From Meghimatium bilineatum (Eukaryota; Mollusca; Gastropoda; Stylommatophora; Philomycidae), in assembly GCA_034231615.1 (NCBI GenBank), contig CM067306.1, forward strand, positions 67,971,579 through 68,035,578: a DNA stretch of 64,000 nucleotides, read 5' to 3'. Below the pieces are notes generated by a model. That model did not search any database, was not told the origin of the DNA, and worked only from the letters and a program-made list of their open reading frames with translations. The position numbers and the translations under genes are program-made. Positions within the stretch are counted from its first letter, which is position 1. Each line of letters begins with the position of its first letter. Positions 16,301 through 47,700 of the stretch are shown here, piece after piece.

Positions 16301-19300
16301 CTGTTGTAAATGATAACTCTCAGCATTCTTCTATAGAACCACATCTCTGTTGTAAATGATAACTCTCAGCATTCTTCTATAGAACCACATCTCTGTTGTA
16401 CATGATAACTCTCAGCATTCTTCTATAGAACCACATCTCTGTTGTACACGATACTCTCAGTATTCTTCTATAGAACCACATCTCTGTTGTAAATGATAAC
16501 TCTCAGCATTCTTCTATAGAACCACATCTCTGTTGTACACGATACTCTCAGTATTCTTCTATAGAACCACATCTCTGTTGTACATGATAACTCTCAGCAT
16601 TCTTCTATAGAACCACATCTCTGTTGTAAATGATAACTCTCAGCATTCTTCTATAGAACCACATCTCTGTTGTAAATGATAACTCTCAGCATTCTTCTAT
16701 AGAACCACATCTCTGTTGTACATGATACTCTCAGTATTCTTCTATAGAACCACATCTCTGTTGTACATGATACTCTCAGTATTCTTCTATAGAACCACAT
16801 CTCTGTTGTACATGATACTCTGTATTCTCTATAGAACAACATCTCTGTTGTACATGATACTCTGTATTCTCTATAGAACCACATCTCTGTTGTAAATGAT
16901 AACTCTCAGCATTCTTCTATAGAACCACATCTCTGTTGTAAATGATAACTCTCAGCATTCTTCTATAGAACCACATCTCTGTTGTAAATGATAACTCTCA
17001 GCATTCTTCTATAGAACCACATCTCTGTTGTAAATGATAACTCTCAGCATTCTTCTATAGAACCACATCTCTGTTGTAAATGATAACTCTCAGCATTCTT
17101 CTATAGAACCAAATCTCTGTTGTACATGATACTCTGTATTCTCTATAGAATTATATCTCTGTTGTACATGGTACTCTCAGAATTCGTCTATAGAATCCCA
17201 TCTTTATTGCCTCAAATATTCCACTATCCAGTTGATTTATTGTCCAAGACTGGCATCCATATGTTAGAACTGGTGTTATGTAGCTCTGCAGAAATCTCTT
17301 CGCTTATTAACTTACAACATAACACAGTTAGATTCAGGCAACATAATTAATCTGTCTATTCTGCAGACAAAGAAGAAACAAGTTTTACCCTGGTTGTAGT
17401 CATCACAACGTCAGTTGCTCTCTCCATGTGTGTGTTCATCATAACAGCTGTCTGCCTAGTGCGTCGGCACCTACGAAAACGCAGACCAGAGAGTTTGCTT
17501 CTCCCACCAGAAGTCAGACTTCTGGAAGATGACATCTTGTGTAGAGGTTTCCATGGTGGATCAAAGCAGGTATGCCATCTTTTCTTGTATTCACCTAATC
17601 TTCTTCTCATTTGCAATTTGACATGTCTACACAGCAAGTTCATTTTTCTTAATAAATACTGTTGTATTTGACAGTTCCTCTGTGGGCCAGTGTTCTTCCC
17701 TTAACTTGTTTAGTGTATTGCAGTCTTACAGGATAGGTTCAAAATTGTGTGCTGTCTGCCCACATAAACACAGGTGATGGAACCAGTCTTAATCTATTTA
17801 AGTGGTTGTTTAGTCTGTTGTATCATGTTCAGAGGCAGAAGTAATAACCTGCTCAGCTCTATGGAGATAGTGAGTTGTCTTTTGGGTTGTCAACTTTTCT
17901 GATAGCATTAATGAGGGTCCTCTTTTCTCATTAGCTGATTTTTTGGGGTCTTTTTGTTCTTTTGTTGCTCCCTTTTTGACCAGCCTTTCTGCCTCTTCAT
18001 TTCCTGGTATACCAAGTGAGATGGTATCGACTGTAGTACTACCCTTCTTTGGATGCTCACTACTCGTATGGCTTCCTAATGGTCTGGTAGTGTCATTGTC
18101 ACGCACTTGTAGGACAGACATTACATCAGTAAGAACACCAGTAAGACATTGCATTATTGCACCTGTTGATATTGGGTTGTTGTGTTTTTAATTATTTCTG
18201 CAGAAATGTTTAGTGCATGTGATTCTGCAGAGTAGTTGGAGCAGAATATTCCAGTTATTGAACATGTGGATTCATTTTCTTTTTCTGGATATTTTATGTA
18301 CACTCCAGCACCTCTATTTTTCACTGCTCTGGTTGCTGATCCGTCAGTATATACTTGTATCCATGTTTCTCTGGGGTACATATTTTCAATCATGTTGCAT
18401 ACTATTGTTTTCTTTTGGAGATTATTCAGTTCTATCATAGTGTAAGTGTTCTTCATGTTGGTTCTGATAGTGAGACTTTGTTATTGCTCCCATGTAACTG
18501 GGAAAAGTTTTGGTGTTATTTCACTTGTTCTGTCTATTAATTATTCCTTAAATTCTCTGTTTAGTTTTTTTTAGATCGGTGAATAAAACTGCCCCTTATC
18601 AGCCTTCCACTGACTAGGTCACAGAATCTGGCGTTCATTGGATGTGCTGGCATGCACTTGTATTTGTCTGCATATGCCATGGTCTTAGTGTCCTACCTGG
18701 ATGGTAATGGGTGGTGGGGGGTGTTGATGCCTGTAATATTTTCCATTTGATTTATAGGAGAGGTCTTCATGGTACCATAAGGCGAAAGGTGAAATGCTTG
18801 AATTTGTATATTGTTCAGGGCTTGTAGATGGGAAGTGACTGCTGGAGTTCATGCTGTTGATCCATATTCTAATACTGGTCTAATTGCTCATATATATATA
18901 TATATATATAATGTTTTTTAAGGTTGCCTCATTGCGGCCCCCCCCCCCCCCCCAGCTTGTCCTGCCAATTTCCTTAGGATATCTAGTTTCTTTCTTGCAT
19001 TTGCTTCTGTTTTCTCAATGTGTGGCCTCCATGTCAGTCTCTTATCTAGTGCAATGCCTAAGTACATTGGCTCATCTTCTGTTTAGACATGTATTTTCAA
19101 ATTTTATCTCTCCTCTTTTGTCCTATTTGAGAGAAGAGTTGTTGATTACTTTTCAGCATTTATATAATAATGTTTTTTTTACACACAATTTTCTTACCCG
19201 TATAACACACAAATTGAAAGAAAACTCATAGGAATGTATTAGAACTTGAACTGTTTTTTTTCTATATGATTGAACTGTTGTTTATCAATAGGATTGACCC

Positions 19301-22300: not shown

Positions 22301-25300
22301 CGATGACCAAAAACTAAACCATGATAATAATAACAATAAATAATAAAAGTTAATAGTGCGCTTTTAAATGACTAGCAAGTCCAATGCGCACACAAAATGT
22401 TCTTTTACAGAATTGACATCAATAGAGGTTATCTATGTGAGGTTGAGATGTTTTTTCTTTTCTACGTGTCCGCTTGTCTTGCAATTTCTTGTCTGAATTC
22501 TTCCGCCGATAGTGCTCCCAATCTAATGCTGTAACGCCATGCTGTTCTATCCTGAACGAGGCTCTCCCAAGCGCCTACGTCAATGTTAAGATGTTTCAAT
22601 GATAGTGATAGTGTGTTAGTCATCATCAAGTAGGACTTCATTACCTGTCTTCCACGTGAGTAATATTTTGTAATGCAAATTCTTTTAATTTGGATCTATT
22701 AATCATTACAGTGTATTTAGATAAAGAAATAGTTTAATATCTGACTTACATGTATGGGTCCAGCATAGAATCTTGGAAGTTACACAGTGCAGCAGTCACA
22801 AGCAATGTTCTTATGTTGGTCACAAGCAATGTTCTTATGTTGGTCACAAGCAATGTTCTTATGTTGGTCACAAACAATGTTCTTATGTTGATCACAAGCA
22901 ATGTGTCACAAACATATTTGTTTTTTCTTCTTCTCATTCACTTGAAACATGTCTATATCTGTAATTCTGTCTCCTTAATAAAATTCAGTCTTTTGTAGTT
23001 CATACAGTGGCCCATAGAGCTTTGATTCCAGTGTTGTTTCCTCTGGCCAATATGTCTGCCTCAGCGTTTCATCCTCCGAACACTCTTGAAGCATATGTTT
23101 GGCACTCTGTGCCACATGTCCACACGTACACATGGCCGTGTTGCCAATCTTGAACTTTGTCGATGTGACTGCGGAGTTGAGTGTGCCCCGTTCTGAGTCA
23201 TAGAATTACAACTTGTTCTGATCTGTTCATAATGTGATAGTCATCTTGTGTTGGTGTTTATCATTGATTTGATCATCGGTTTTTTTATGGTAGGTGATTG
23301 GTACATCTGATTGGTCTTCAGCAGCACCTTCTTTAGCCAGTAGGTCTGCTTTTTAATTTCCTGGTATTCCACAGTGAGAGGGTATCCACTACATGGTTAC
23401 CCTATACTGGTAAGACAGTTCATTAAGTAGTTTTTTTAAGTCTGTTAGTTTTCCAGACTGGTGAATTTGAAGCACTGACCTTGCATCTGTCAGGAATACC
23501 ATGGGCTGTGGGCAAGGGTTAGAGTTCAGTATTTTTCAGTTGTCACCCTAATATGGAAAAACAACAAAATAGAAATGAAACTGCTAATGCTACAAACTTT
23601 TATTTTTCCGGTTGCTACATACGGCTGTGAGACATGGACCCTAAGTAAAACAGCAGCAAAAAAAAGATCAACACCTTTGAGATGAAATACTACAGAAGGA
23701 TACTTAGTATATCATGGAAGGGAAAAGAGAAACTCAGATATTATAAACACATTGAAGATTCCAGAGTGTTGGTTACTAAACACGGTACAAAAAGAAAACT
23801 ACACATGTTTGGTCATATAAAAAGACACAATTGTTTAGAAAGACATAATGGAAAGCAGACCAAGAAGACGATGGACTTATGACATTAAAGATAACATGAA
23901 TACGTCATTGGAAAATGCAAGCAGCATCGCCAAAGACAGAGAAGGGTTCAGGGAGTTTATTGGGAAGACAACGTTCTGGAGAGAATTCATCACATAATGC
24001 GCACCCTTATTGCCTGGATTTCTGCATCATAATTATTGCAGAATTTTCATGTTGGTGAACTGATCGTATCTCTAGGCTTGTGCGGATATTCTATATATAC
24101 ACCTGCACCTCCATTCCTCACTGCATCCTGTACTGAAACATCTGTGTATACTCTAACCCATATGCCTTGTGGATATTCCTCGTCCAGAAAATTGAGGGTG
24201 ACTGTTCTTCACAAAACACTGTTCTGTTTGTCTTTGCTTTCACGTGAATATATTAATGTACGAGGGGGAGTCAATAAGTAAGTCACAAATTGATGTTGGA
24301 TGGCAGGAAAATGCAGTAGGTGGTTTCTAAAGCTGTTTATAGTTGATATCATCATAGAACTTTATGTTTATGTTCGCTAGATGGCGCTAGCTGTACCTTG
24401 CGCATGCGCAGCACAAAAAACAAAATGGCTACTGTACTTACAGAGTGTACAATCAATGAACAACGTGCTGTTGTGCGTTTTTTATGGGCAAAAGGACTGC
24501 CTGCAAAAGACATTCATAAAGAAATGCTTCTTGTTTATGCTGACAATTGTTTGTCCCGTAAAGCGGTGCACAGCTGGGTAAAAAATTTTTCTCAAGGACG
24601 CTCTAAAATTGTTGACGAAATCCGATCTGGTCGTGCTGTTGAAATTGCAACAGACGCATCTGTGCAGCGGGTTGAGGAGATGATTCGAGGTGACAGACGA
24701 GTAACGATAGACGCTGTAGCAGCTGCAATAGGGTGCTCACATGGTTCAGCATACAGCATCATGCATGACCGATTGAAATTTAAGAAAGTGTGTTCAAGGT
24801 GGGTGCCCAGACAATTGACGGACGAACACAAAATGAACCGATTAGGCTTGTCATTGGAGCATCTCTGTCAATACGCAAATGAAGGAGAAGACATGATGAA
24901 CAGGATTATTACTGGGGACGAATCATGGGTGCATCACTACCAGCCTGAATCAAAGCGTGCTTCAATGCAATGGAAACATCCTTCTTCGCCTTGTGTCCAA
25001 AAATTCAAGGTTACACCATTAGCAGGGAAGGTTATGCTGACAGTGTTCTGGGATTGTCAAGGAGTGCTTTTAACCAATTTCAAAAAGAAAGGTGACAATG
25101 TGAATTCTGAATCATACTGTGAAGTTCTATCAGTGCTTCGGGATGCAATTCGAAGAAAACGTCCAGGGCTGCTGACTAGAGGAGTGCTACTCCTTCATGA
25201 CAATGCTAGACCACATACGGCTCGATTAACTCAGGAGAAAATAAAAAATCTTGGTTGGAAAATTCTGGAACATCCTCCTTACAGCCCCGATTTAGCCCCT

Positions 25301-28300
25301 AGTGATTTTCACCTTTTTGGTCCACTAAAAACCGACCTTGGCGGGAAGCATTTCGCGACTGACGCAGAAGTTGAATGTGAAGTGAAAATGTGGCTTTAAA
25401 AAGCAGAGCACGCAGTTCTACGCAGCAGGTTTGGGAGGACTCATAAAACGATGGGATAAATGCATCAATGTTGGTGGAAATTATGTTGAGAAGTAAAGGA
25501 TAATGTATGTGTAAAAATAAACAGTTTTCAGGTTTTTATCGTCTTCAGTTTTTTTCTAAAGAGCCATTTGTGACTTACTTATTGACTCCCCCTCGTATTT
25601 TGGTATTCCATACCTTTCACTCCAAGGGGTTTGTTCTGGTACAGACCTTAAGGGGCTGTTAACTTTAGGTAGATCTGTAAGTTGTCTATAGAGTTGTTTA
25701 GCTTGGTTGATAAAGCTTCTTCTTTTCAGTCGCCCCATTGCTAGATTTTGGAATCTTTCCTTCATTGGAAGACATGGCACACACTAAAACTTTTCTGCTT
25801 GTATTAGTACCTTTGTGCGTTTGCCAAGTTTTGCATTCTTCCCATTTCTGCATCTCTATGATGGGTGTTGATTTCATTGCTCCCAACATTACTCTAAGCA
25901 CTTGGTTTTGCAGTTTATCTAGATCTTGTAATGTGGTGTTTGATGCAAGACACCATGCAGCTGAAGCATATTCCAGGTGTGGTCTTATGCCTTGCTTGTA
26001 AAATTTACGGAGTATATTTCCACTGTCTCGCCATGTGGTTCCACTTAGTTTTCTCAGGATAAATAACTTCCTCCTGGCTTTTGTTGTTGCTTTGTTTATG
26101 TGTTGCTTCCATGTCAGCTTATCATCAAAAGTAACTCTGAGGTATGTAGGTTGTTTGTCTTCTTTCAAGAGCTCTCCATCTATCTTGATATCATCGACTT
26201 TTTGTTTTGGTGAGAGGGTAAAGAGTGTAGTGCTGATCTGTGTTCTTATCTGTGAGAGTTATCTGTGTTAACGCTGACACACCATCTATTTGCCCATAAG
26301 GTTAAGGCTTCAATAGCTTTTCGTATTTGTTTAGTTGCCACTGTTGCATGTTCTTCCGTGCACCAGATCATTAAGTCGTCAGCATACATTGCCACTTTGA
26401 TCCCATGTGGTAGTTTGGCAACTAGGTCATTGATGTAAACCATGAAAAGTGTGGGTGACAGGACTCTTCCCTGGGGTACTCCACTATGCATTCATCCAAT
26501 TATGCCCTGACTCTGCTATTATGCAGGTACCCATTTGTACATTCTTGAGTTAACCCTGCAATTTTGTAGTTTCTGTAAGAGTCCTTCTTTCCTAACCTTG
26601 GCAAATGCTTTCCTGGGGTCTATCCATGCTGCTAGTACCAGTTTCTTATCTTGGAAGGCATCCTCAATCTCTTGGAGAGGCAGTGGCGTAGTGTGTGTCA
26701 ATGGGGCCCGGGCAGAATCATAATTTTCCACCGTTGACATAAAAAATATGTCAGTGATTGTGAAAGACTGGATGGAAATATATTTACTGCCCTCCCAAAG
26801 ATGCTGCCCGGGGCAGTCCGCACCTCCGCCCCTCACTCGCTACGCCACTGTGGAGAGGTAGGTTGCCTGATCTAGACAGCTTGTGAGGCTGATGGGACTG
26901 TATTGACATCTTTTCCCAATTTGAGAAGTGGTATCATTATTGCTTCCCTCCATGTCTGCGTAACATTACCTGAGGTAAAGCTTGTGTTGAAGATCAGCAG
27001 TAGCTATGCTCTTGCTGCAGTTCCCAGGTATTTAATAATTTCATTAGACATTCCATCAGCTCATGGGGACTTTTTCTTTTTCAATTTGGATATTGCATGC
27101 TCTAGTTCTTTTATTGTGATTGGGGCCTCCATGACTTCAGGTATAGATTCTTCTTGTCCAATGTTTTTCTGTTTCTCTCGAACCTCCTGTTGTTTGTCTG
27201 GGCTAACTTTGATGTTATTGTCTTCTGCAAAGGAATCTGCAAAGTAATCAGCTGCATGTTTACCTTTTAAAAAGTTTCTATATAAAGTGTGTATTTCTCA
27301 CTGTAACTTCATCATTTAGTTGTTTACCAGTTTCCACAATTTCCTGCACTCTTATAGTTCTACTTAGTGAGTGTGCTGCTGTCCTAGATAAATTCATTGT
27401 GAATTTCATAAAATACTGGTCTCTGGTCACTACCCTCAAGCTGCTTTCCAATGACACTGTGATGTTCCATTCAAGGCCCGGTGAGTGAAATGCCAGGTCT
27501 GGTGTAGAGGTGGTGTGCCATGCTCTGGAGTATAAGGTTGGTGAGCCTGCTGACTGGTTAATAAGTATGTGATTATTTTCATATGCCAGCTCTCAAGTTC
27601 CTCACCTCACTTGTCCATGTGATCATAGCCCCAGCTCTGAGAGTGCTGTTGAAGTCACCATGCACCATAGGTCTCTCTTTTTCTGGGATTGTGTCTAGTG
27701 CCAATGGTAAATCATTTGGGCAGTAGTAGTTCAAGAGATGGAATTCTGTACTGTCTGTTTTTAGGTGGAGCATCTGGTATACCACCCCCTCCATACACGC
27801 TTCCAGCTGACATACACTGATATTGTTTTTAACAAGTGTCAGAATTCCGCCCTTTCATCTGTCCTTTCAGTCTGATCAGTAGCACTGGTAGCCTCTGCTT
27901 TTAAAGGCTATACCACTGCTAAGGTGTGTTACTTTAATACAGCACACTCCAATATCTGCAAATTTTCCATTTGTCTTGGAACATACAAATCCCTTCTTTG
28001 TTTATCCATGTCAGTATATTTTCTGTCAATATTTTTGTCACAATCAAGTGTAATATTGTTTAACCGTGAAAGTGTGCTATGTTTCTATAGAATAGACAAT
28101 GGAGTCCATTTGGACCACACTGATAACAAGTGCTATAGCTTATGATATAAAAAAAAATTTCTGTTGATTTAAAAAAAATATTTTAGCATGTTGTTCAAAG
28201 ACATATTTGTGACAGTCATAAAATATCAATCATATTCAAACAAATTTCAATAAACTGGAAAAAGTAAAAATTAACAGTGAGGTCCATTTGGACCCCATAG

Positions 28301-31300
28301 TAGTTTGAGGGTTAATTACATGTTCTGGACTTTATTACTGTGATATTGTATGAGACAATTTGTTCAAATAATGCTATTTCTTGACAAATATTTTATTCAC
28401 CTTTGTCTTATTCCAGGATCAGTGGTCATCAGGTAGTGGGTCAGGTCAGCCCACATTGGTACCCAGGACAGTTGGAAAACAAGTTACTCTCATTGAGAGG
28501 ATAGGTAAGTCTATGGGAACTGTAATAGTTTGAAGTATATATACATCTGTGGTGAACTATAGTAGTTGATATCCCGAGGCCACGCCCGTCAGAGGGTCGG
28601 CGAGTCAAAAGCAATCACTTCCCTCGCCTGGTCGAGCGGGGTCGCGGTGGTGGCACAATCTTCTTCCGTGCTCGAGGGAAGATAAATGTTGCTGTCACTG
28701 GGGCTCAGTGGAAGCGCGATGGGCTCTCGAGGATCGCGACAGATCTCTGTGGCCTCAAGTGCATGCTGCGCCATCTATCCCTATGGTCGTCCAACAAATC
28801 TCTTCATCCTCCTTGCAACACGAGCGGCTCTTGATTGCATATTCCTGGCGGTGGAGATTCTCGTACTGTTGCTACTGACGCCGCTGCTGCTGCTGTTCGG
28901 CAGGACTCGGATCGATAGTAGTTGAATGGATAGGTAAGTGTGTCTTGAGGAACTGTGGTAGGTGAAAGGAAAGGAAAGTCTGTGGGGAACTGTCATAGTT
29001 GAGAGGTTAGATAAATCTGTGGGGAATTGTAGTTGGAAGGTTAGGTAAGTGTTATGAGGAACTGTGGTAGTTGGAAGGTTAGGTAAGTGTTATGAGGAAC
29101 TGTGGTAGTTGGAAGGTTAGGTAAGTGTTATGAGGAACTGTGGTAGTTGGAAGGTTAGGTAAGTGTTATGAGGAACTGTGGTAGTTGGAAGGTTAGGTAA
29201 GTGTTATGAGGAACTGTGGTAGTTGGAAGGTTAGGTAAGTGTTATGAGGAACTGTGGTAGTTGAGATGATACATACGTCTGTGGGGAACTGTGGTAGTTG
29301 GATGGATAGGTAATTCTGTGTTGAGAAACTGTGGTATTTCAGAAGATAGGTGAATTGTGGTAGTTGAGAGAATACATTATTCTGTTGGGAACTGTGGTAG
29401 TTGGAAGGATAGGTACGTACGTCTGTGGTGGGGAATTGTGATAATTGGAAGGGTAGATACGTACGTCTGTGGTGGGGAATTGTGATAATTGGAAGGGTAG
29501 ATAAGTCAGTGGGGAACTGTCGTAGTTGAGAGGATAGGTAAGTCTGTGAGGTACTGTCGTAGTTGAGAGGATACCTGATCTGTGGGGAACTGTGGTAGCT
29601 GAGAGGATAGGTAAGTCTGTGGGGAACTGTTACAGTTGAGAGGATAGGTAAGTGTGTGAGGAACTATGGTAGTTGAGAGGATAGGTAAGTCTGTGGTGTG
29701 AGAAACTGTGGTAGTTGGAAGGATAGGTATGTCTGTTGTGGTAAAATGTGGTAGTTGAGAGAATAGGTAAGTCTATGGTGAGGAACTGGTAGTTGAGAGG
29801 ATAGTCAAGTCTATGGGGAACTGTGGTAGTTGGGAAAATAGTTTAGTCTGTGGTGAACTGTGGTTAGTTAGTTAGTTCCTTTCGTGCTGCAGGCGGTACA
29901 TAGGACAGAAGTTTTGATTTCCATGTGTTGTGGTCCGCTGCTTGCAGTTTTAGCTCTTGTATGGTCTAGCAGCTTATTGTTTCCCCTTCTTTAAGTATGG
30001 TGTTTTTTAGGGTTGCTTTAGGTCTTCTTTATTTTCTTTTATCCTCAGGTGTCCACAGAAGGGCATGTTGGTTTATTCTGTTTTCATCTAGTCTTAAAAC
30101 GTGAATCCGGTATTTGCATCTGCATTTTCTTATGATGTTTGAAACATATTCTTGGTGTGTTTTGTTTCTTAAATCACTATTTGTGATGAAATCGCTCCAT
30201 TTTATGTTCATCAGTTTCCGGAGACATTTGTTTTCGAAGCTGCTTATTGGTCAGAATTTTTGGTCTGTTGCTTGAGTTGATTTCCAGCTTTCACTTCCAT
30301 ATGGTAAAACTGGGACAATTTAGGAGTTGAATAGCTTTAGCTTGGTGTTTCTTCCTAGATCATTTGATTTCCAGATATTAGTTAGTTTAGTGAATGTGCT
30401 AGCTGCAACTGCTATGCGTGTATTTATTTTTTTCATTGAGTCTCCATCAACAAACATTTGACTGCTCAAGTAATTAAAGTTGGTGAAATTTTCTAGTATT
30501 TGGTTGTTTACTGAGATGTTTGTTGAACTGGTAAATTCCATGATTTTTTTATTTAGATGTGTTGGTTTGGAGGCTTTTTGAACTGCGAGTGTGCATAGTC
30601 TGTTGGTTATATCATGTGTTTGTTGATGAGTAGAGTTTAAGATTGGGATGTGATTTGCAAAATCAAGGCCAGTTAATATGTTGTTTTTGAGCCATTGGAT
30701 GCCCACTTTTTCGTCTGGAATGGTTTTATGCATGATAAAATTGATGGCTATTCCAAATAACATTGGCGATAATACGCAGCCCTGTTTCACTCCTGTGTCG
30801 ACATTGAACCATTTTGAAATTTCTGTTTCTGTTCTTACACAACAGGTTGCTTCTTAGTAAAGGGCTTTTATGATGATTATATATTTTATTTGGAATCCAT
30901 AAATCTTTAGGATTTCCCATAGTGCAGGTCGATGTATTCTGTCCAATGTCTTTTGGAAGTCTATAAAGTTAATAACTAAAGGAGTTTGAAACTCAATTGA
31001 AATTTTTATATTTCTAGGCATGAAGGTGTGGTCTACACATGAACGGTTAGGTCTAAAGCCGGCAAACTGTGGTACTTGGAATTATTTGTATGTCTGTGGG
31101 GAACTGTGATAGTTGGAAGGATAGTTAAGTCTGTTGTGAACTGTGGTGGTTGGAAGGATAGGTAAGTCTGTGGGAACTGTGGTAGTTGGAAGGGTAGATA
31201 AGTCTGTGATGAATTTTGGTACTTGTAAGTATAGATTACTCGGTTGTTCGGTTGTGTAAACTACTGCCAACATAAAACCTACCACTGTTTATGAACCAGA

Positions 31301-34300
31301 ACCATAGTTACTATTATGTCCTCATCAAAAGAAATTTTACACCGTATTGCCCTTGCAGCGGGTGCTTTCAATAAACTACGCAACATATGGACGTCAAACA
31401 CACTAAGAAACACCACAAAACTCAAGTTGTTTAACTCCAACATCATCCCTATTCTATCATATGGGTGCGAAAGTTGGAAAGCCACAAAAGCCACAGATAA
31501 AAGACTCGACTCCTTTGAAAACAACTGCCTACGTACCATTCTGAATGTTAAGTGGAGTGACTTTAAATCTAACACTACTATAAGAGAGGAAAGCAAACAA
31601 ACCTATATATCTTCCTTCATTAGACAAAGGCGTTGGACTTACATCGGCCATGTTCTCAGAATGAACAGCCTAAGAATTCCCCAGCAATCACTATATTGGG
31701 TGCCACCTGGAGTAAGAAGAAGAGGGAGACCTAGAGAAACTCTACGAAGAACCATTAATAGAGAAGGCATGTCAATGAACCTAAACAACACGCAACAATT
31801 GAAAGACCTGGCAACACAAAGACAGAAATGGAAGGCTATGGTTTCTGCCCTATGCGCCGCCTATGGCCCTGGAGGAACATAACATAACATAACAAGGATA
31901 GGTAAGTCATAGGGGAACTTTGGTATTTGGAAGGATAGTTAAGTCTCCGGTGGGGAATTGTGATAGTTGGAAGGGTAGATAAGTCATTGGGGAACTGTCA
32001 TAGTTGAGAGGATAGGTAAGTCTGTGAGGAACTGTTGTAGTTGAGAGGATAGGTAATTATGTGGGGAACTGTGTTAATTGGATGAATAAGTTAGTCTTTG
32101 GAGAACTGTGTTAATTGGATGAATAAGTTAGTCTTTGGAGAACTGTGTTAATTGGATGAATAAGTAAGTCTTTGGAGAACTGTGTTAATTGGATGAATAA
32201 GTAAGTCTTTGGAGAACTGTGTTAATTGGATGAATAAGTAAGTCTTTGGAGAACTGTGGTAGTTGGATGAATAAGTAAGTCTTTGGAGAACTGTGGTAGT
32301 TGGATGAATAAGTAAGTCTTTGGAGAACTGTGTTAATTGGATGAATAAGTAAGTCTTTGGAGAACTGTGGTAGTTGGATGAATAAGTAAGTCTTTGGAGA
32401 ACTGTGGTAGTTGGATGAATAAGTAAGTCTTTGGAGAACTGTGGTAGTTGGATGAATAAGTAAGTCTTTGGAGAACTGTGGTAGTTGGATGAATAAGTAA
32501 GTCTTTGGAGAACTGTGGTAGTTGGATGAATAAGTAAGTCTTTGGAGAACTGTGGTAGTTGGATGAATAAGTAAGTCTTTGGAGAACTGTGGTAGTTGGA
32601 TGAATAAGTAAGTCTTTGGAGAACTGTGGTAGTTGGAAGGATATCTACATCATGTTTAGCAACTGATGGTTGGAAGGAAATTACTTATATACACAACAAA
32701 CTCACATATACACAACAAACTCACATATACACAACAAACTCACATATACACAACAACACATGTGTTAACTTACACAATATCCACTTTTTACAACACTCAC
32801 TTATGTAAGAAAACACCCTCATTTGTAAGTACAACACCCACACATGTAAACACGACACCCACAGTCTAGGTTACTCATCTGTTTGTTTGTTACTCCTCAT
32901 GCCTTCTTTTTTGTCCCTCCCCCTTCAACTCAAATGTTCTCTCACTCTGTAATGATATGATATGGGACCTTGTATATTGCAGGCAAAGGTCGATTTGGAG
33001 AAGTCTGGCGTGGCAAGTGGCTGGATGAGGATGTTGCAGTGAAGACTTTTTCATCACTGGAAGAGATCAGCTGGAACCAGGAGACAGAGATCTACAACAC
33101 AGGCATGTTACACCACGAGAACATCTTGGGATACTATGCGTCTGATACTGTTGGAGTCCTGTCTTGCACACAGAACTGGTTAATCTTGCAGTATCATCGC
33201 AATGGATCTTTGTATGATTATTTGCAGGTATGTGTGTGTGTGTGTGTGCCTTGTCTAGGATTCTTGATTAGAGTCAGCACGCAGGACATTCTCACATGTG
33301 CTCCACTCCAGCAGCCATCCAAGAGTATACAGAATCAAAGTCCCAGTCAGATGATCTTTGTAACTTTCCAGAGATGGCACACTTTCTCCCTTCACCCCTG
33401 GTTATCCATACATCTATTATTTTGTGTAAGATTATGTTATTATATCCAGCATTATCTTCTTCACTCTGTAGTAAATCACTTCTACAATCTGTAGTAAATC
33501 ACTTCTTTACTCTGTAGTAAATCAATAACATCTTCACTCTGTAGTAAATCAATAATGTCTTTACTCTGTAGTAAATAACTTCTACAATCTGTAGTAAATC
33601 ACTTCTTTACTCTGTAGTAAATCAATAACATCTTCACTCTGTAGTAAATCAATGATGTCTTTACTCTGTAGTAAATCACTTCTACAATCTGTAGTAAATC
33701 ACTTCTTTACTCTGTAGTAAATCAATAACATCTTCACTCTGTAGTAAATCAATAACATCTTCACTCTGTAGTAAATCAATGATGTCTTCACTCTGTAGTA
33801 AATCAATGATGTCTTCACTCTGTAGTAAATCAATGACATCTTCGCTCTGTAGTAAATCACTTCTTTACTCTGTAGTAAATCAATAACATCTTCACTCTGT
33901 AGTAAATCAATGATGTCTTTACTCTGTAGTAAATCAATGATGTCTTTACTCTGTAGTAAATCAATGATGTCTTTACTCTGTAGTAAATCAATGATGTCTT
34001 TACTCTGTAGTAAATTACTTCCTCATTCTGTAGTAAATCAATGACATCCTCACTCTGTAGTAAATCAATGACTTCTTTACTCTGTAGTAAATCACTTCTT
34101 TACTATTTAATAAATCAATGACTTCTTTACTCTTTAATAAATCAATGACTTCTTTACTCTGTAGTAAATCACTTCTTTACTCTTTAATAAATCAATGACT
34201 TCTTTACTCTTTAATAAATCAATGACTTCTTTACTCTTTAATAAATCAATGACTTCTTTACTCTGTAGTAAATCACTTCTACACTCTTTAATAAATCAAT

Positions 34301-37300
34301 GACTTCTTTACTCTTTAATAAATCAATGGCTTCTTTACTCTTTAATAAATCAATGACTTCTTTACTCTGTAGTAAATCACTTCTTTACTCTTTAATAAAT
34401 CAATGACTTCTTTACTCTTTAATAAATCAATGACTTCTTTACACTTTAATAAATCAATGACTTCATTACTCTTTAATAAATCAATGACTTCTTTACTCTT
34501 TAATAATCAATGACTTCTTTACTCTGTAGAAAATCTCTTCTCCCTCTTTAATAAATCAATGACTTCTTTACTCTGTAGAAAATCTCTTCTCCCTCTTTAA
34601 TAAATCAATGACTTCTTTACTCTGTAGTAAATCACTTCTACACTTTAATAAATCAATGACTTCTTTACTCTTTAATAAATCAATGACTTCTTTACTCTTT
34701 AATAATCAATGACTTCTTTACTCTGTAGAAAATCTCTTCTCCCTCTTTAATAAATCAATGACTTCTTTACTCTGTAGTAAATCACTTCTACACTTTAATA
34801 AATCAATGACTTCTTCACTCTTTAATAAATCAATGACTTCTTTACACTTTAATAAATCAATGACTTCTTTACACTTTAATAAATCAATGACTTCATTACT
34901 CTTTAATAAATCAATGACTTCTTTACTTTGTAGAAAATCTCTTCTCCCTCTTTAATAAATCAATGACTTCTTTACTCTGTAGAAAATCTCTTCTCCCTCT
35001 TTAATAAATCAATGACTTCTTTACTCTGTAGTAAATCACTTCTACACTTTAATAAATCAATGACTTCTTTACACTTTAATAAATCAATGACTTCTTTACA
35101 CTTTAATAAATCAATGACTTCTTTACTCTTTAATAAATCAATGACTTTACTCTGTAGTAAATCATTTTGACTTACTTCACTCTGTATAGAAAGCGAATAC
35201 ATAACTATAAGTAATCCTACACAACAAAGACATACAAGCAATCCTAGGCATGAAATCCTATGCAACACACATATATACATGAAAATCCTTCACAAAACAT
35301 ACATGCATATAAGTAATCCTACACAACACACACATGTAATGCTACATAACACAAACATATAAGTAATCCTACACAACACACGCATGTAATGCTACATAAC
35401 ACAAACATATAAGTAATCCTACACAACACACACATGTAATGCTACATAACACAAACATATAAGTAATCCTACACAACACACACATGTAATGCTACATAAC
35501 ACAAACATATAAGTAATCCTACACAACACACACATGTAATGCTACATAACACAAACATATAAGTAATCCTACACAACACACACATGTAATGCTACATAAC
35601 ACAAACATATAAGTAATCCTACACAACACACACATGTAATGCTACATAACACAAACATATAAGTAATCCTACACAACACACACATGTAATGCTACATAAC
35701 ACAAACATATAAGTAATCCTACACAACACACACATGTAATGCTACATAACACAAACATATAAGTAATCCTACACAACACACACATGTAATGCTACATAAC
35801 ACAAACATATAAGTAATCCTACACAACACACACATGTAATGCTACATAACACAAACATATAAGTAATCCTACACAACACACACATGTAATGCTACATAAC
35901 ACAAACATATAAGTAATCCTACACAACACACACATGTAATGCTACATAACACAAACATATAAGTAATCCTACACAACACACACATGTAATGCTACATAAC
36001 ACAAACATATAAGTAATCCTACACAACACACACATGTAATGCTACATAACACAAACATATAAGTAATCCTACACAACACACACATGTAATGCTACATAAC
36101 ACAAACATATAAGTAATCCTACACAACACACACATGTAATGCTACATAACACAAACATATAAGTAATCCTACATAGTAAATCAATGACTGATCTTAAATG
36201 ATTGGCCCTATCACTCTTGAATACTCTGCTATCAATCACAGCATTATTCACCAATGTGCTCTTTTTATTTCGTCTGAACCCCACATGACCAGAGCCATAT
36301 ATCCATGTAATACTTTGTACAACCGAGTTGTTTAGTAACATGACTCCATTGCTTTCGTATGCTGCATTCGGCTTTCTATATTCAGCAGCTTTTTTGTGTA
36401 GGATTATATGTAATAAAAATATGTAGGATCGCATATGTTTGTGATGTGTAGGATTACTTATAGATATGTTTTTATTGTTTAGGATTAATTGTATATATTT
36501 GTGTGTTATCTAGGATTACTTATATGTTTGTATTATTTAGGATTACTTATATGAATATGTGTGTTTTGTGTAAGATTTTCATTTACCTGTATATAAGTGT
36601 GTTGCATAGGATTTCATGTATGTTGTATAGGATTATTTGTATGTCTTTGTTGTGTAGGATTACTTATATGTGTGTACTATGTAGGATTACTTATATGTTT
36701 GTGTTATGTAGGATTACATGTGTGTGTTGTGTATGATTATTTATATGTATGTGTGTTTTGTGTAGGATTTCATGCATATGTGTGTTGCATAGGATTTCAT
36801 GTATTTTGTATAGGATTCTTGTATGTGTTAATTGTGTAGGATTACTTATATGTATGCTTTAATTGTATGAGATTACTTATCTGTATTATGCTTATGTTGT
36901 GTGAGATTATGCATATGTATGTTTATGTTGTATATGATTACTTATGTGTATGTTTGTATCATAAAGCGTTTACAAGGTTTGCCAAAACAAGAATTTCTTT
37001 TGACAGATTGTATGCAAATGTGTGGCATAGAAATAGCATCAACCTATAGACAGCTGAAAGTTTACAGAGCAGTGGTACTTCCAGTGCTGTTATACACTAG
37101 TGAAATATGGACTCTGTATAGTCGTCACATGAAGAAACTCAATCACTTTCACACAACTTGTCTCAGAAAAATTATGACCTTCAGATGACAAGACACGATT
37201 CCGTATACCACAGTCCTTGACAGATCTGGTATTGACATATATACCTAGCATTGACACTAATTCTGATGCAGACACAGATTCATTGGGCAGGTCATCTGGT

Positions 37301-38689
37301 ATTGAAATATATACCCAGCATTGACACTAATTCTGATGCAGACACAGATTCATTGGGCAGGTCATTTGGTATGTATACCAGATCATCGCCTGCCAAAGAT
37401 ACATCTACATGGTGAGCAGGAGAAGGGCACAAGACCTCAAGGTGGCAAAAGTAAATGCTACAAGGACTCGTTAAAGACGTCACTGAAAGCCTTTGAAATA
37501 GACCAACATACATGAGAAGAACTTGCACAAAGTAGATCTACAGTCAAAAAGATTGCATGATTTTGTGAAAAGATGAGAAATGCAGCAGCTCAACAGTGGA
37601 GAGTAGCTAGAAAGTCACAGACAGACCCAAAACCGTCAACAATGATCATCTCATGCCCAGACTGTTCAAGGACATTTGCGGCTCAAATAAGGCTTATTAG
37701 CTATCTACAAACTCATAATCAAGAACATATCATCAACTGAATTTCAAAAGTGGATGTAACAAATGGTCATCATCATCATGTGATGGACAAATAACAAACA
37801 AATATGTATGGTTATGTTGAGTAAGATTATATATATGTATGTTTATGTTGAGTGAGATTATATATATGTATGTTTATGTTGAGTGAGATTATATATATGT
37901 ATGTTTATGTTGAGTGAGATTATATATATATATGTTTATGTTGAGTAAGATTATATATATGTATGTTTATGTTGAGTAAGATTATATATATGTATGTTTA
38001 TGTTGAGTGAGATTATATATATATATGTTTATGTTGAGTAAGATTATATATATATATATGTATGTTTATGTTAAATGTAATGTTTATGTTGAGTGAGATT
38101 ATATATATATATGTTTATGTTGAGTAAGATTATATATATATATGTATGTTTATGTTGAGTAAGATTATATATATATATATAATATGATTATATTATATAT
38201 ATATATATATATATGTATGTTTATGTTGAGTAAGATTATATATATGTATGTTTATGTTGAGTGAGATTATATATATGTATGTTTATGTTGAGTAAGATTA
38301 TATATATATATATGTATGTTTATGTTGAGTAAGATTATATATATATGTATGTTTATGTTGAGTAAGATTATATATATGTATGTTTATGTTGAGTGAGATT
38401 ATATATATATGTATGTTTATGTTGAGTAAGATTATATATATATATATGTATGTTTATGTTGAGTAAGATTATATATATTTTATTATATATATGTATGTTT
38501 ATGTTGAGTAAGATTATATATATGTATGTTTATGTTGAGTAGATTATATATATATATGTATGTTTATGTTGAGTAAGATTATATATATATTTTGATTATA
38601 TATGTATGTTTATGTTGAGTAAGATTATATATATATATGTATGTTTATGTTGAGTAAGATTATATATATGTATGTTTATGTTGAGTAAG

Positions 38690-38780
<91 letters not shown>

Positions 38781-41700
38781 GTTGAGTAAGATTATATATA
38801 TATATATGTATGTTTATGTTGAGTAAGATTTTATATATGTATGTTTATGTTGAGTAAGATTTTATATATGTATGTTTATGTTGAGTGAGATTATATATAT
38901 GTACATTTATGCTGAGTAAGATTACTTATATGTACATTTATGTTGAGTAAGATTTTATATATATATGTATGATTATGTTGAGTAAGATTACTTATATGTA
39001 CATTTATGTTGAGTAAGATTTTATATATATATATGTATGATTATGTTGAGTAAGATTACTTATATGTACATTTATGTTGAGTAAGATTACTTATATGTAC
39101 GTTTATGTTGAGTAAGATTACTTATATGTACGTTTATGTTGAGTAAGATACTTATATGTACGTTTATGTTGAGTAAGATTACTTATATGTACGTTTATGT
39201 TGAGTGAGATTACTTTAATTTCTTGGTTAAAATTCCACCTGATCTCCAGCGCAGTGAAATAGACATTGAAGAGATGCTGTTACTTGCCCACTCAGCTGCT
39301 GCTGGGCTTGCCCATCTTCACACAGAAATCAAAGAGGGAACAGGGAAGCATGATAAACCTGCAATAGCTCACAGGTAGATAGGTGTTGAGAGGAAGAGAA
39401 AACTTTGAGAGAAGGTTTTGAGAAGTATTGTGTGTGTGTGTGCTGAGATCAATTTTTAAGAGTTGGCATTTAGAAAACAATTGGGGTGCTACAGGTAATG
39501 TATTGCTCTCGTGCGGACTCAGGGTTAGCAGTTAGCCAAGATCCTAAAAGTACCTCCTCGTGGTGCACCCTGGAAATAGAAAAATTGCGGCTTGTGATGT
39601 TTCCGTTCAACACTTTTGGAGATGGTGTCTGTAAATATGGAGCCTGCAGATGGAATGTGAATTGACTGCAGAAAGACAAGCAAAATCTCCCACACCTCTG
39701 TTAACACATACAGCGGCACTGTGAACACACACACAGTACCACAAGGCAGTCTGGCTCTGGCAGTATAAACACAGATGCATTGGAGGGGTGGTCAATGCAA
39801 ATGTCTCGAAATGGGTAGATGGTGTTTGTACAGATAACCAAGTACGATGAGAGGGCATCACAGTGCCTGAGGGCAGTACCAAGTGAAAATAGAATGGGAA
39901 AATGCTACATGGAAATCTGAATTAAAAGTCTTGTTCAGCTCAAGCTAAAGAACAAGCTTCTAGTCCCTGATGCTCTTAGATATGTGTAGAGACTCAGATT
40001 TGGATGAAGGGTTCACGATGTCAGTGAGTGACACCTCAATTAAGAGGGCAAACAAAACCGGACCAATTCTACTGTCAAGTTTTTCCTATACCGAAATCAT
40101 ACTTATAGAAGAGAAAAGGTTTAGTACTCAATGGGCACAGGCACAATACGTCTAATTACGCAAGACAAGTTCACTGGTAGGGGAACACCTCATGCAAGAG
40201 AGACGTAGTTGACCCAAGCTTAAATCCCTGATTACCGCCTCCTCAGAGACTGCCATCCAGGGATGTGTTTTAATCTGAAAGTCCAAGGGCACAGTGGGTG
40301 ATAAACCATCACTCTGAAGAGTCGTACTTATATAGAACACAGGTCTTAGAAGTTTCACTTGTTGACAACTAAGGGGCTATGGGGTGTAAATATTAACAAA
40401 TTTCAGTTTTACAGCAGTATTACCTTTTATTGATCTCTGAAGAGATCTGTCACCTGGCAACAAATTGTAAGGCTGTCACAGGCTAAGGAAGCTCACCTAA
40501 ATCAAAGGCATGTTTAAATCAGATGTGCTGGATCTTCCAAGGTGCAAATAACATGGCTATGTTGTAAACTTGCAGCACAACATACTTCTCGGCCCCCTGC
40601 GGAAATCATACAAACTTTCTCATGATGGTTATCAGAGAGCAAGCGCAGAAGAAGAAAAGAATTGGTAGAAAATATTTTTGTTTAATTTGAGAGAAGAAAA
40701 TTTATAGAAAGTTTAGAGAGAAGGTATTGAGAGAAAGTTTGGAGAGAAGGTATTGAGGTATATCTGTCATTTATCATCTAACCATCTTCAGGGTTGTAAG
40801 CCATTTATGCTCATACATTTTAAGGGATATCAATCATTTATGATTACTTACACATCTTCAGGGATATCAGCCATTTATCATCTTACATATCTTCAGAGCC
40901 ATTTATCCTCACACATTTTAAGGGATATGAACCATTTATGATCCACTTACACATCTTCAGGGATATCAAATCCAAGAATATCCTAGTTAAAGATAATGGC
41001 CAGTGCTGTATTGGAGACCTTGGTCATGCAGTCAGAAGCAGCAATCTAAGCACAGATGCGGGACTTTACAAACTGGTAAGCCTAACCCTGTTGCTTAATA
41101 TCATCAATTTCATAACCCCCCCTCCCCCAAATTTAAGGGGAGCTACTTTAGAAATATAAATACAAACGTTCAGCAATGCCTCTATGTTCTCAGTTCATGG
41201 TTTGAGAATATAGAAATTTAATCCCACCATGCCTCTCTTTTCCCAGTTCCTGGTTTGAGTGTAGGGAAAGTACTTAATCCCATCATACCCCTCTGTTCTC
41301 AGTTCCTGGTTTGAGTGTAGGGAAAGTACTTAATCCCATCATACCCCTCTGTTCTCAGTTCCTGGTTTGAGTGTAGGGAAAGTACTTAATCCCATCATGC
41401 CTCTCTGTTCTCAGTTCCTGGTTTGAGTGTAGAGAAACATAATGCCATCATAAGGTTCTGCTTTTAGTTCTCTGTTTCATTGTAGAGAAATGTAATCCCA
41501 CCATGCCTCTTTGTTCTCAGTGTGTAGTAGTGTAGAGAAGCTGCCATACATCACATACGTTGATCAACAGAGAGATGAAGCTGTCAGACATCACATAATT
41601 GTAGATATACCTAAGGGAGATTTAACATATGTCCCCAAGCAAGATTAAAGCAACTATGGACATGTCATGTGTACAGTCATATATGTGACTGGGAATCTCT

Positions 41701-44700
41701 TGGTTTTCAGATGATCTATTGAGATAATTGGTAATAGGGGAAGTTGAGCTGAGAGGTAATAGTGGGAAGTTGAGGTGAGAGGTAATAGTGGGAAGTTGAG
41801 GTGAGAGGTAATAGTGGGAAGTTGAGCTGAGAGGTAATAGTGGGAAGATGAGGTGAGAGGTAATAGTGGGAAGTTGAGGTGAGAGGTAATAGTGGGAAGT
41901 TGAGGTGAGAGGTAATAGTGGGAAGTTGAGGTGAGAGGTAATAGTGGGAAGTTGAGCTGAGAGGTAATAGTGGGAAGTTGAGCTGAGAGGTAATAGTGGG
42001 AAGATGAGCTGAGAGGTAATAGTGGGAAGTTGAGGTGAGAGGTAATAGTGGGAAGTTGAGGTGAGAGGTAATAGTGGGAAGTTGAGGTGAGAGGTAATAG
42101 TGGGAAGTTGAGGTGAGAGGTAATAGTGGGAAGTTGAGCTGAGAGGTAATAGTGGGAAGTTGAGGTGAGAGGTAATAGTGGGAAGATGAGCTGAGAGGTA
42201 ATAGTGGGAAGATGAGCTGAGAGGTAATAGTGGGAAGATGAGCTGAGAGGTAATAGTGGGAAGATGAGCTGAGAGGTAATAGTGGGAAGATGAGCTGAGA
42301 GGTAATAGTGGGAAGATGAGCTGAGAGGTAATAGTGGGAAGTTGAGGTGAGAGGTAATAGTGGGAAGTTGAGGTGAGAGGTAATAGTGGGAAGTTGAGCT
42401 GAGAGGTAATAGTGGGAAGTTGAGCTGAGAGGTAATAGTGGGAAGATGAGCTGAGAGGTAATAGTGGGAAGTTGAGGTGAGAGGTAATAGTGGGAAGTTG
42501 AGGTGAGAGGTAATAGTGGGAAGTTGAGGTGAGAGGTAATAGTGGGAAGTTGAGGTGAGAGGTAATAGTGGGAAGTTGAGGTGAGGTAATAGTGGGAAGT
42601 TGAGCTGAGAGGTAATAGTGGGAAGTTGGGGTGAGGTAATAGTGGGAAGTTGAGCTGAGAGGTAATAGTGGGAAGTTGAGGTGAGAGGTAATAGTGGGAA
42701 GTTGAGGTGAGAGGTAATAGTGGGAAGTTGAGGTGAGGTAATAGTGGGAAGTTGAGCTGAGAGGTAATAGTGGGAAGTTGAGGTGAGGTAATAGTGGGAA
42801 GTTGAGCTGAGAGGTAATAGTGGGAAGTTGAGGTGAGAGGTAATAGTGAGAAGTTGAGGTGAGAGGTAATAGTGGGAAGTTGAGGTGAGAGGTAATAGTG
42901 GGAAGTTGAGCTGAGAGGTAATAGTGGGAAGATGAGCTGAGAGGTAATAGTGGGAAGTTGAGGTGAGAGGTAATAGTGGGAAGTTGAGGTGAGAGGTAAT
43001 AGTGGGAAGTTGAGGTGAGAGGTAATAGTGGGAAGTTGAGGTGAGAGGTAATAGTGGGAAGTTGAGGTGAGGTAATAGTGGGAAGTTGAGCTGAGAGGTA
43101 ATAGTGGGAAGTTGAGGTGAGGTAATAGTGGGAAGTTGAGCTGAGAGGTAATAGTGGGAAGTTGAGGTGAGAGGTAATAGTGAGAAGTTGAGGTGAGAGG
43201 TAATAGTGGGAAGTTGAGGTGAGAGGTAAAGGTAACCCAAACTATGAGTCATTATCTTATTACCACACAGTTTTACTGTAAGTGCTTAGTTGCCTAGCCA
43301 CCTGCTGACCAGAGCTTAAGTTACCTGGCCAGCTACTGACCATAGCTTAATTGCCTAGCTAGCTGTTTACCATAAGCATCCTATCTAATGTTACCTACCA
43401 CAATTACTAAGTAGCGATGCTGCCATTCATAAACCTACCCTGAAATTCTACCCCCTTGTGGCTGGGTGAACCACAGGAGTAATTTTTATTTCAAACTATG
43501 GATAAACTTCAAACCCCAGTCTTCTGGATGGAGGGCAAGTGACTTAGCGCTGAACTATGTGGGGGAGAGAAGTTAGCAAATTGTTTACTCTTCCATAGTA
43601 CTAAATCTAATATGATATTTTCCTAAGAGATGGCATATGTACAATGATGGATCTGATACTTGATATCAGTCAATTGCTACAAAAATGAACAGGACACTCA
43701 TGGAAGAGAAAGTTCTAGTTTATCACACCTCATCCTTGCCTTATAGGTCTAAATCCAAGAATTCTTATAGGCAGTTGCATGTTTTTATTTGACCTTCAAA
43801 CTAATTATTTTTATACCTATTCTTGGTTTCAGCTGGTCGGCACCAAACGTTACATGGCACCAGAAGTACTCACAGAGACATTAAATCCAGATGTGTTTGA
43901 GTCATTCAAATTTGTTGATGTTTATGCATTTGGACTGGTTTTGTGGGAGATTGCAAGAAGGGCACACCGTGAGTCTCTTGTTTTGCTTCTTTTTTTTTCC
44001 AGCATTTGTTTTCAAACTCCCTCTGGAACTTTCTTGCAGTAGAACAATTCGATGTTGATTCTTGATTAGGAACAAGCTTCACATCACTAGGAGCATTCCC
44101 ATACATGCTCTGCTTGCCGTTCCGTCAGCCATCTAAAAGTGTATAAGCTCAGTGTCCCAGTCAGTTGCTTATTACATGTTCTTCTGATCTTTCCAGAGAG
44201 CGGAGAGGAAGCTCTTTCTCCCATCACCTCTAGTCCCTCCTATTTCTACCATTCTCTGAATACGTACATTGTCTCATTTGACCTCTTCATCTTCTCGTAG
44301 GGCATCCATGACTTCTCTAATCAATTAAAACTTGTCTCTTATCTCAGTGCCGTTCACCAAGACTTTACCAGCGAACACATCAACTCTTTTGTATCTTCTT
44401 ACCCCAGCATGACTTGGACAGAAGATCCATGTAATGCTCTGCGCATTGTTGAGCACAGTGACCCATTCAGTTCTGATCACACGCTTTTCTATCTTGCACA
44501 GCATACCTTGAGAGTCCGATAGAATCACTGAGTCTGTTGTTGGTTGCATTGCCAGCCAAGTGAGAGCTGCTGTGACCGATTCTATTTCCATTCTCATACT
44601 GGATGTTGTAGTGGAATGCAAAGCTGACTTCTCAGCTAATTTCTTGCCATTTTGATAGGCCACGAAACCCCAACCACATCTGTTTGTTTCTTGTGTTACT

Positions 44701-47700
44701 GAGCCGTCTGTGTAAATTATTGTATTGTGTGGCTTCGAGTGCTGCAGTATGAATTCTTAAAAAGTGAAACTGTTCCACAAAATTTCAGGGATATAACAAT
44801 TATACACTTGTATAAACATAAAGGTAACCACAAGTCCTATAATAACCTTCGTGGTATCTCTCTACTGTCCATCGCTGGAAAGATATTTGCTAAAATTCTT
44901 TTGAACCATCTTAAATCTCATCTTAATGAAGGATTACTACCCGAAAGCCATTGTGGTTTCAGAAAAGAATGTGGAACAACTGATATGGTCTTTGCTGAAA
45001 GACAACTTCAGGAAAAATATCAAGAACAACACTTTGACCTGTACACAGCATTCATAGACTTGACAAAAGCATTTGACACAGTAAGTAGAGAGGGACTGTG
45101 GAAGATTCTAGCAAAATATGGATGCCCACAGAAATTTATCACAATGGTGCAGCAATTGCATGATGGAATGCAAGTTAGAGTTCAGGATGATGGAGAGTTA
45201 TCTAAAACTTTTCCCGTCTCAAATGGAGTAAAACTGGGATGTGTATTACCACATCTATCCTATCATGTTCTCTGCTATGTTAGATGATGCATTCAGAGAT
45301 CTAGACTTGGGAGTAAACATCATATACCGCATCGATGGAAAAACTGTTCAACCTTCGGCGGCTCCAAGCAAAAACCAAAGTAAAATCACACACAATCAGG
45401 GATCTCTTATGTGCTGATGACTGTGCCATAAATGTCAACTCTGAGGCTGATCTACAATGTATTATAGACAGATTCTCCACAACATGTACCAACTTTGGAC
45501 TTACTATAAACACAGAGAAAACAGAAGTCATGTTACAAACAGCACCTGGCAAAAGCTATCTCGAGCCCTGCATAAAGGTAAATGGCATAGCACTGAAAGT
45601 TGTGAATAGATTCACATACCTAGGTAGTACGTTATCACAAAATGCCATCGTTAATAATGAAGTGTATACAAAGATCATCAAGGCAAGCAACACTTTTGGC
45701 AGATTGTACGTACATGTGTGGCGTAGAAATGACATTAACCTATAGACTAAACTGAAAGTCTACAGAGCAGTGGTGCTTCCAGTGATACGCTAGTGAAACA
45801 TGGACTGTGTACAGACGTCATGTGAGGAAACTCAATCACTTTCACACAACTTGTCTCAGAATAGTCATGAACATCAGATGGCAAGACATACCACTGTCTT
45901 TGACAGATCTGGTATCCCCAGCATTGACACTGTCTTTGACAGATCTGGTATCCCCAGCATTGACACTGTCTTTGACAGATCTGGTATCCCCAGCATTGAC
46001 ACTGTCTTTGACAGATCTGGTATCCCCAGCATTGACACTGTCTTTGACAGATCTGGTATCCCCAGCATTGACACTGTCTTTGACAGATCTGGTATCCCCA
46101 GCATTGACACTGTCTTTGACAGATCTGGTATCCCCAGCATTGACACTGTCCTGATGCAGACACAGATTAATTGGGCAGGTCATTTGTTACGTATGCCAGA
46201 CCATCGCCTGCCAAAGATACTTCTCTATGGTGAGCTGGAGAAGGGTAAACGATCTCAAGATGGCCAAAAGAAGCACTACAAGGACTCATTAAAGACCTCA
46301 CTGAAAGTGTTTGAAATATACCAAGATACATGGGAAGAACTTGCCGAAAATAGATCTACATGGCACTCTAAAGTCAAAAAGAATGCATTATCTTGTGAAG
46401 AGAGGAGAAATGCTGAAGCCCAACAATTAAGAGTAGCTAGAAAGTCACGGATAGACCAAAATCCATCTATAGTGCTCATTCCATGTCTGAACTGTCCAAG
46501 GACATTTACAGCTTGAATAGGGCTCATTAGCCATGTATGAAATATTATGTATGGTCATAATTCTAACTGAATTTTCAAAAGTTGATGTAAAAAATGGCAA
46601 TCATCACTTGTGATGGACTAATGAAAAGAATAAGTTCTTGAATCATTCCCTCTGTTATGTTGGCAGCCCTATCACTGAACTCTCTTCCCATCTGTATCAG
46701 AACTGTTGTCAATAACTTTCTATCCTTGCCAAATGCCACCATTCACAGCCTCTTCCAACTTCCTCCATCCCACAAACTCTGAGTAAGGTATCTTCTGCTT
46801 CTGCCATACAAGTCATTCTTCTCTTGATACACCTTCCTTTTGTGTTGTCTAGAGATTGGTGTAAGAGGTGATGATCATTATTGGTGACATTATGTAGTAG
46901 AACAATGGTCCTACTAGATTATGCAAACTCTCTTGTAGTAGAACAATGGTCCTACTAGATTTCTCAAACTCCCGCTGGAACTCTCTTGTAGTAGAACAGT
47001 GGTCCTATTAGATTTCCAGATGATGTAGCCCAATGAACATATGTGTATTGTGTCCCTTGTTTTATTTTATGTGACAATGGCCAGGCACATCCCTCTTCAG
47101 CAGTAGTCTCTCTTTAAATTTTATATTAACTAATACATTTCTTAAATCATGATTGATTGCATCATTTGTGTTTTCTCGTGTGAAATCCATCATTGCTAAA
47201 CTTTGGTCATATGATATTCAGGGTGCTCAAAGAGTAGGCATGCGTATATGAAATGTGCCTATAGTCTGGGAATTGAAGATTGATAAGTGAGAAGGCATGC
47301 ATATATGAAATGTGCCTACAGTTGATTAGAGGAATGCTCTCAAATTGCAAAGAAATCAGATTTTAGTATTTCTTTGATGTCATCTATCCATCTTCGTCTG
47401 GGTCTTCAGCACCTGCAGTATGAGTACACTTCAACACCTATAGTAAGTGTACACTTCAACACCTGTAAACAGCCTGAAGTCGGATGTGTCAGGCCAAAAA
47501 ATGCAGATATCGCAGCAATGCTGTAAACCATGACACAACACATTCCGTTCTCCGGACTACATCCTGCTAATCTGCAGGAGTTTGAGAATGAACGCAGAAG
47601 AAGAAACACCTGCAATATGTATACACTTCAACACCTGTAGTATATTATACTTCAACACCTGCATCATGTGTACACTTCAACACCTTCAGTATGTGTACGC

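Follow-up and report, generated by a model that had tools for sequence, protein, structure and literature searches.

How does the 5′ splice site of a gene come to be repeated dozens of times within the intron that it opens, and what becomes of splicing once this has happened? The question is raised by a TGF-beta/activin type I receptor gene on the plus strand, most of which lies inside the 64,000-bp stretch of DNA analysed here (the window). One intron of this gene holds a minisatellite with a unit of approximately 37 bp, the left edge of which falls inside the preceding exon, at position 28493. The initial annotation had described the true donor as the first unit of its own array, and the present analysis agrees: unit 1 (28493-28528, plus strand; local parse and 12-mer search) consists of the last 12 exonic and the first 24 intronic bases and contains the true 5′ splice site at 28504/28505.

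The host gene was modelled by tblastn using a human ACVR1 query, and the exon borders were then set by reading for GT-AG. All modelled borders are GT-AG by this reading, and the splice sites are predicted ones. Nine exons were placed (12339-12513, 17367-17569, 28417-28504, 32983-33227, 39250-39374, 40961-41075, 43833-43968, 51348-51478 and from 53904), and when spliced they form one open frame of 478 codons up to the stop. Neither tblastn nor border reading located the first coding exon in the window; the model starts at the ligand-binding exon, and numbered from there the GS-box exon is the third. The best PDB match of the spliced protein was activin receptor type-1 (E 4.9e-116), with an alignment that runs unbroken through the 28504/28505 junction. 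Pfam placed a protein kinase domain in the spliced protein, together with a GS motif at 20.8 bits, slightly below the cut-off of 21.3. Identity to human ACVR1 was 50-65% over seven GS/kinase pieces (tblastn), values that do not settle the phylum. Judged by its sequence, the host is an ACVR1-like TGF-beta/activin type I receptor gene. Its GS-box exon (28417-28504, plus strand, 88 nt; placed by tblastn, the open spliced frame and the ACVR1 alignment) ends in L-I-E-R-I-G, with only the first base of the Gly codon, and supplies the exonic part of the repeat. The phase 1 intron holding the donor-seeded array has predicted borders at 28505 and 32982 (plus strand), and thus extends beyond 32640, where the stretch considered in the initial annotation (28505-32640) stops.

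A local parse against a typed consensus (cut-off score at least 11) detected 53 matched stretches, the first at the junction itself; three of them, with scores not above 13, are perhaps not true units. Similarity continues in register through the junction and ends 12 bases into the exon, upstream of which the exonic bases are, by eye, unlike the end of a unit. The junction TTGAGAGGATAG/GTAAGTCT had been reported as exactly repeated at 29526, 29673 and 32004 and was found there, and a further copy, at 29636, matches it over 18 bases. The exonic 12-mer TTGAGAGGATAG occurs seven times on the plus strand of the window (28493, 29526, 29636, 29673, 29793, 32004 and 32041) and not at all on the minus strand, and apart from the exon-end copy at 28493 every copy in the window lies within the intron. 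This variant is present in 7 of the 53 matched stretches. Among 1476 12-mers of the modelled exons only the one at 28493 equals it, the next best agreeing at 8 of 12 bases, and the other seven donors of the gene match it at between 1 and 6 of the 12 positions.

To compare every junction with every intron, 16 junctions were scored against eight introns. Donor 28504/28505 scored 12, 11, 28, 12, 11, 14, 10 and 12, where 28 is the value for its own intron and 14 the maximum among the other seven. With a 26-nt query the donor scored 19, a value reached by none of 200 dinucleotide-shuffled versions of the intron, and none of 2704 exonic-26-mer by intron scores reached even 17.

The array is not continuous. 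Following unit 1, a degenerate unit 2 (28530-28565, plus strand; local parse) scores 18 of 37 and is succeeded by a 356-bp insertion (28566-28921), unmatched in the parse and GC-rich within AT-rich surroundings, for which neither a copy elsewhere in the window nor an Rfam match was found. Indeed, an Rfam search of the window returned 0 matches, and a structured RNA was rejected on this basis. The first main block (28922-29864, plus strand; TRF, unit parse and decoy list) includes 11 of the 15 identical-core decoy donors beyond 28934. It is followed by a minus-strand insertion (29865-31039; unmatched in the parse, window comparison, Pfam), a fragment of a LINE-like reverse-transcriptase element, then by an array remnant (31040-31221, plus strand; local parse) and a plus-strand insertion from the same element family (31222-31894; parse, window comparison, Pfam DUF6451), which the remnant separates from the first fragment. 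The last array block spans 31895-32670 (plus strand; TRF and unit parse). The two element insertions are inverted relative to each other and 61% identical over 592 columns, one scoring above the Pfam DUF6451 cut-off and the other just below it; the first of them also matches 45051-45248, inside an open reading frame with a reverse transcriptase domain. Neither main array block matched anything elsewhere in the window (E up to 1e-3). Five identical 38-bp units at 29071-29260 in the first main block, and 15 units carrying TTGGATGAATAA at 32078-32632 in the last, show local homogenisation at the level of sequence. The edges score 28 (unit 1), 18 (unit 2) and 11 (last unit) and the inner blocks are homogenised, as judged from parse scores.

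Tandem arrays of period at least 10 cover 19613 of the 64000 window bases, from 4-5% to 77% of individual introns. Another intron contains a 350-codon open reading frame (24347-25396) with a mariner-type transposase domain (Transposase_1, HTH_48), and reverse transcriptase or endonuclease reading frames of several retroelements lie at 44703-45742, 58417-59148 and 5034-5633.

The repeat, its register and its three insertions are directly readable, and together they suggest a history. A tandem duplication of approximately 37 bp would have taken in the final 12 bases of the GS-box exon together with the 24-25 bases that open a pre-existing intron; slippage or unequal exchange would be the cause. 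The duplicated segment would then have been amplified and partly homogenised, and the array afterwards split by the three insertions. Taken as a whole (duplication, amplification, insertions, and the exon as source), this explanation is very probably correct.

That the exon is the source and the array the derivative had been claimed from the outset, and the claim held up. In human ACVRL1, a splice variant in intron 5 is designated c.625+1G>C and p.Trp217* lies at c.651, positions from which it can be calculated that intron 5 interrupts codon 209 after its first base, eight residues upstream of Trp217. The array-bearing intron likewise follows the first base of a Gly codon eight residues before a Trp, that of G-KGRFGEV-W. 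We take ACVRL1 residue 209 to be the equivalent Gly in the family alignment. The shared phase and position indicate that the intron predates the array; the exonic bases of the repeat encode I-E-R-I-G, the ACVR1 counterpart being L-E-C-V-G. Because these bases encode conserved receptor residues at an ancient intron position, the exon is likely to be the source.

What the array means for splicing is a separate matter. The initial annotation had pointed to dozens of decoy donor sites, and GTAAGT, the donor consensus, does occur 29 times in 28506-32640 (the mean in shuffles of the intron being 3), 15 of these sites carrying the whole TAG/GTAAGT of the true donor from -3 to +6. It had also predicted that failure at the true donor would read as 12 residues and then a stop, with which our translation agrees. 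There are therefore 16 sites with identical -3 to +6 bases, the closest 88 nt and the farthest 3599 nt from the acceptor that they share, and since the decoys are so alike in sequence, it must be context that singles out the true site. The exon measures 88 nt when the true donor is used and 517 nt with the nearest decoy identical from -3 to +6, longer with the others; exon definition would favour an 88-nt exon over one of at least 517 nt. Unit 1 is most likely still the donor in use, since its site lies 88 nt from the acceptor of the exon and keeps the frame, and the decoy donors are most likely by-products. The locus offers a natural test of how the spliceosome chooses among 16 donors with identical -3 to +6 bases.

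The alternative that survives best is that the array is kept for a function, the decoys binding U1 and thereby tuning splicing or preventing early polyadenylation, with decoy use or donor failure yielding a receptor without its kinase. The abundance of matching decoys and the short read-through extension are compatible with such a role, and the human IFI6 gene is described as using downstream repeat units as donors (PMC4526556). However, the largest homogenised block, of 15 units, has A and not G at -1, so that donor strength has not been kept throughout; the decoy exons would be at least 517 nt long; and the lancelet arrays called mirages, discussed below, are reported to splice normally (PMC3902484). 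We consider a retained function unlikely.

A second alternative reverses the direction of copying: the end of the exon would have been overwritten by the array through gene conversion, or a dispersed repeat would have landed beside the exon. The exonic 12-mer is a common array variant, which speaks in favour of this, but the exon end encodes L-I-E-R-I-G, which aligns with L-L-E-C-V-G of ACVR1, and no other intron has a comparable match. With no 12-mer copy outside the intron and the array blocks unmatched elsewhere in the window, a dispersed repeat was rejected, and the alternative as a whole appears very unlikely. It is more unlikely still that the duplication created the intron, as in Rogers-type intron gain. 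The unit does contain AG/GT, but the intron shares its position with ACVRL1 intron 5, which would require the same position to have been gained twice, and its acceptor at 32982 lies outside the array: no copy of this acceptor was detected in its own intron by cross-intron scores and shuffles (15, against up to 14 elsewhere, a score reached by 31 of 200 shuffles). An array-made intron was rejected on both counts. Finally, chance likeness between a GTAAGT-containing repeat and a donor, which the initial annotation had named as a threat to its own reading, is hardly credible although GTAAGT is what a donor would be expected to carry, since all 12 exonic bases match in register, as does the intronic rest of the unit, and the cross-intron scores, the shuffles and the exonic 12-mers all oppose it.

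The preferred history, tandem duplication across an exon border, would also account for a second array in the same gene. At 40753-40960 (plus strand; cross-intron scores and copy search) there are six copies of a 3′ splice junction, CACATCTTCAG/GGATATCA, spaced by 33, 37, 35, 26 and 38 bases, the last of which is the true acceptor at 40960/40961; eight exonic bases are included. In its own intron this acceptor scores 28, compared with no more than 17 in the others; 0 of 200 shuffles reached its score, and TRF did not report the array. By sequence it is a second clear exon-boundary case, two introns downstream of the donor array, and it would have been made by the same process. The copy ending at 40861 lies 99 nt upstream of the true site, in frame and without a stop, and its use is predicted to lengthen the kinase catalytic loop by 33 residues following the HRD Arg, while use of the copies at 40791 and 40895 would shift the frame and meet stops.

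A third case is probable. Arrays of 31-bp units at 36433-39212 (plus strand; TRF, cross-intron scores, shuffles) resemble the donor junction 33227/33228, 21 of 31 bases agreeing in register with the array unit compared with at most 18 in 1296 exonic 31-mers, and 0 of 200 shuffles reached 17. Against this case, the donor query also scores 15 in an unrelated intron, through a 15-base chance-like match, and a longer query scores 24 in its own intron against 19 elsewhere, values inflated by a GT run. The minisatellite at 36433-37000 has an adjacent inverted relative at 35306-36173, on the opposite strand and 72.5% identical over 550 columns. Acceptors 51347 and 43832 were weak in shuffles (4/200 and 1/200, respectively, reaching their scores) and are not claimed as further cases. 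Just before acceptor 53903, a pyrimidine-rich repeat of 29-64 bp (53640-53880) may supply the pyrimidine tract; cross-intron scores and shuffles gave no sign of exonic bases in it.

Do splice junctions seed arrays preferentially? Using queries of 26 nt for donors and 32 nt for acceptors, 3 of the 16 junctions reach a score of 17 in their own intron, whereas 270 of 779 random intronic 26-mers have an own-intron copy scoring at least 17, as do 9 of 96 intronic 26-mers near donors and 21 of 96 near acceptors. A junction-biased birth of arrays was therefore rejected in this comparison, which gave no excess. Tandem arrays occupy 14267 of the 41654 bases of the gene, and if founders were placed at random, 0.34 arrays would be expected to span a junction by six or more bases on each side. 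This figure is too low, since degenerate arrays, one of the junction arrays among them, escape TRF. Set against this expectation are two clear junction arrays, or three with the probable one; the probability of two or more is approximately 0.05 by arithmetic. The high array coverage of the introns and the frequency of copied 26-mers mean that an array can overlap a junction without any special cause. On the sequence evidence ordinary tandem duplication suffices, with no mechanism specific to splice sites, and a mild bias towards junctions is possible.

The initial annotation knew of no described class of donor-seeded minisatellites, but precedents exist in lancelet mirages (PMC3902484) and in the human 6-16/IFI6 gene (PMC4526556). 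Mirages are tandem duplications of minisatellite type that extend across exon-intron boundaries, 5′ or 3′, in Adh3, the globins BflGb6 and BflGb9, and troponin C and PGBD5 (PMC3902484), and they reportedly splice normally (PMC3902484). Many but not all units keep AG/GT; concerted evolution acts inside the cluster and leaves out the edges, and length is unstable between haplotypes or cells. The receptor array shares the boundary-spanning unit, here approximately 37 bp with 12 exonic bases compared with 10-72 bp in Adh3; it retains the splice signal in part, with 15 decoys plus the true donor carrying TAG/GTAAGT among 53 stretches; and both kinds of boundary are duplicated in one gene, at donor 28505 and acceptor 40960. 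It is thus, with the high probability attached to the explanation as a whole, an exon-boundary minisatellite of the previously described mirage kind. The two BflGb6 haplotypes have 3 and 6 units, whereas the receptor array has approximately 53 stretches and element insertions and is known from one sequence.

The human 6-16/IFI6 minisatellite likewise provides several splice donors, and its downstream units are used (Turri, Cuin and Porter 1995, described in PMC4526556 and cited in PMC2915984), whereas the receptor decoys are candidates by sequence. In Rogers-type intron gain a segment with AG/GT is also tandemly duplicated (PMC4974935, PMC3443670), both splice sites then coming from the duplicated segment at a new position; here the duplication came after the intron, whose acceptor is not part of the array. 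Variable minisatellites, in the form of internal tandem repeats, also lie at exon-intron boundaries in human segmental duplications, where they have been reported as possible sources of new introns in recent paralogues (PMC2812944). It is decidedly unlikely, though conceivable from the sequence, that mirages are general among animals and that some copies are used in this gene, decoy donors giving a kinase-less receptor and acceptor 40861 the in-frame catalytic-loop insertion, two length-variable arrays acting as a splicing rheostat on one receptor. As an exon-boundary minisatellite the donor array is very large, its source exon can still be recognised, and a second one of opposite polarity lies in the same gene. 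The examples given the name mirage in the sources consulted are all cephalochordate, and if the host is not a lancelet, mirages would extend beyond the group for which the name was coined.
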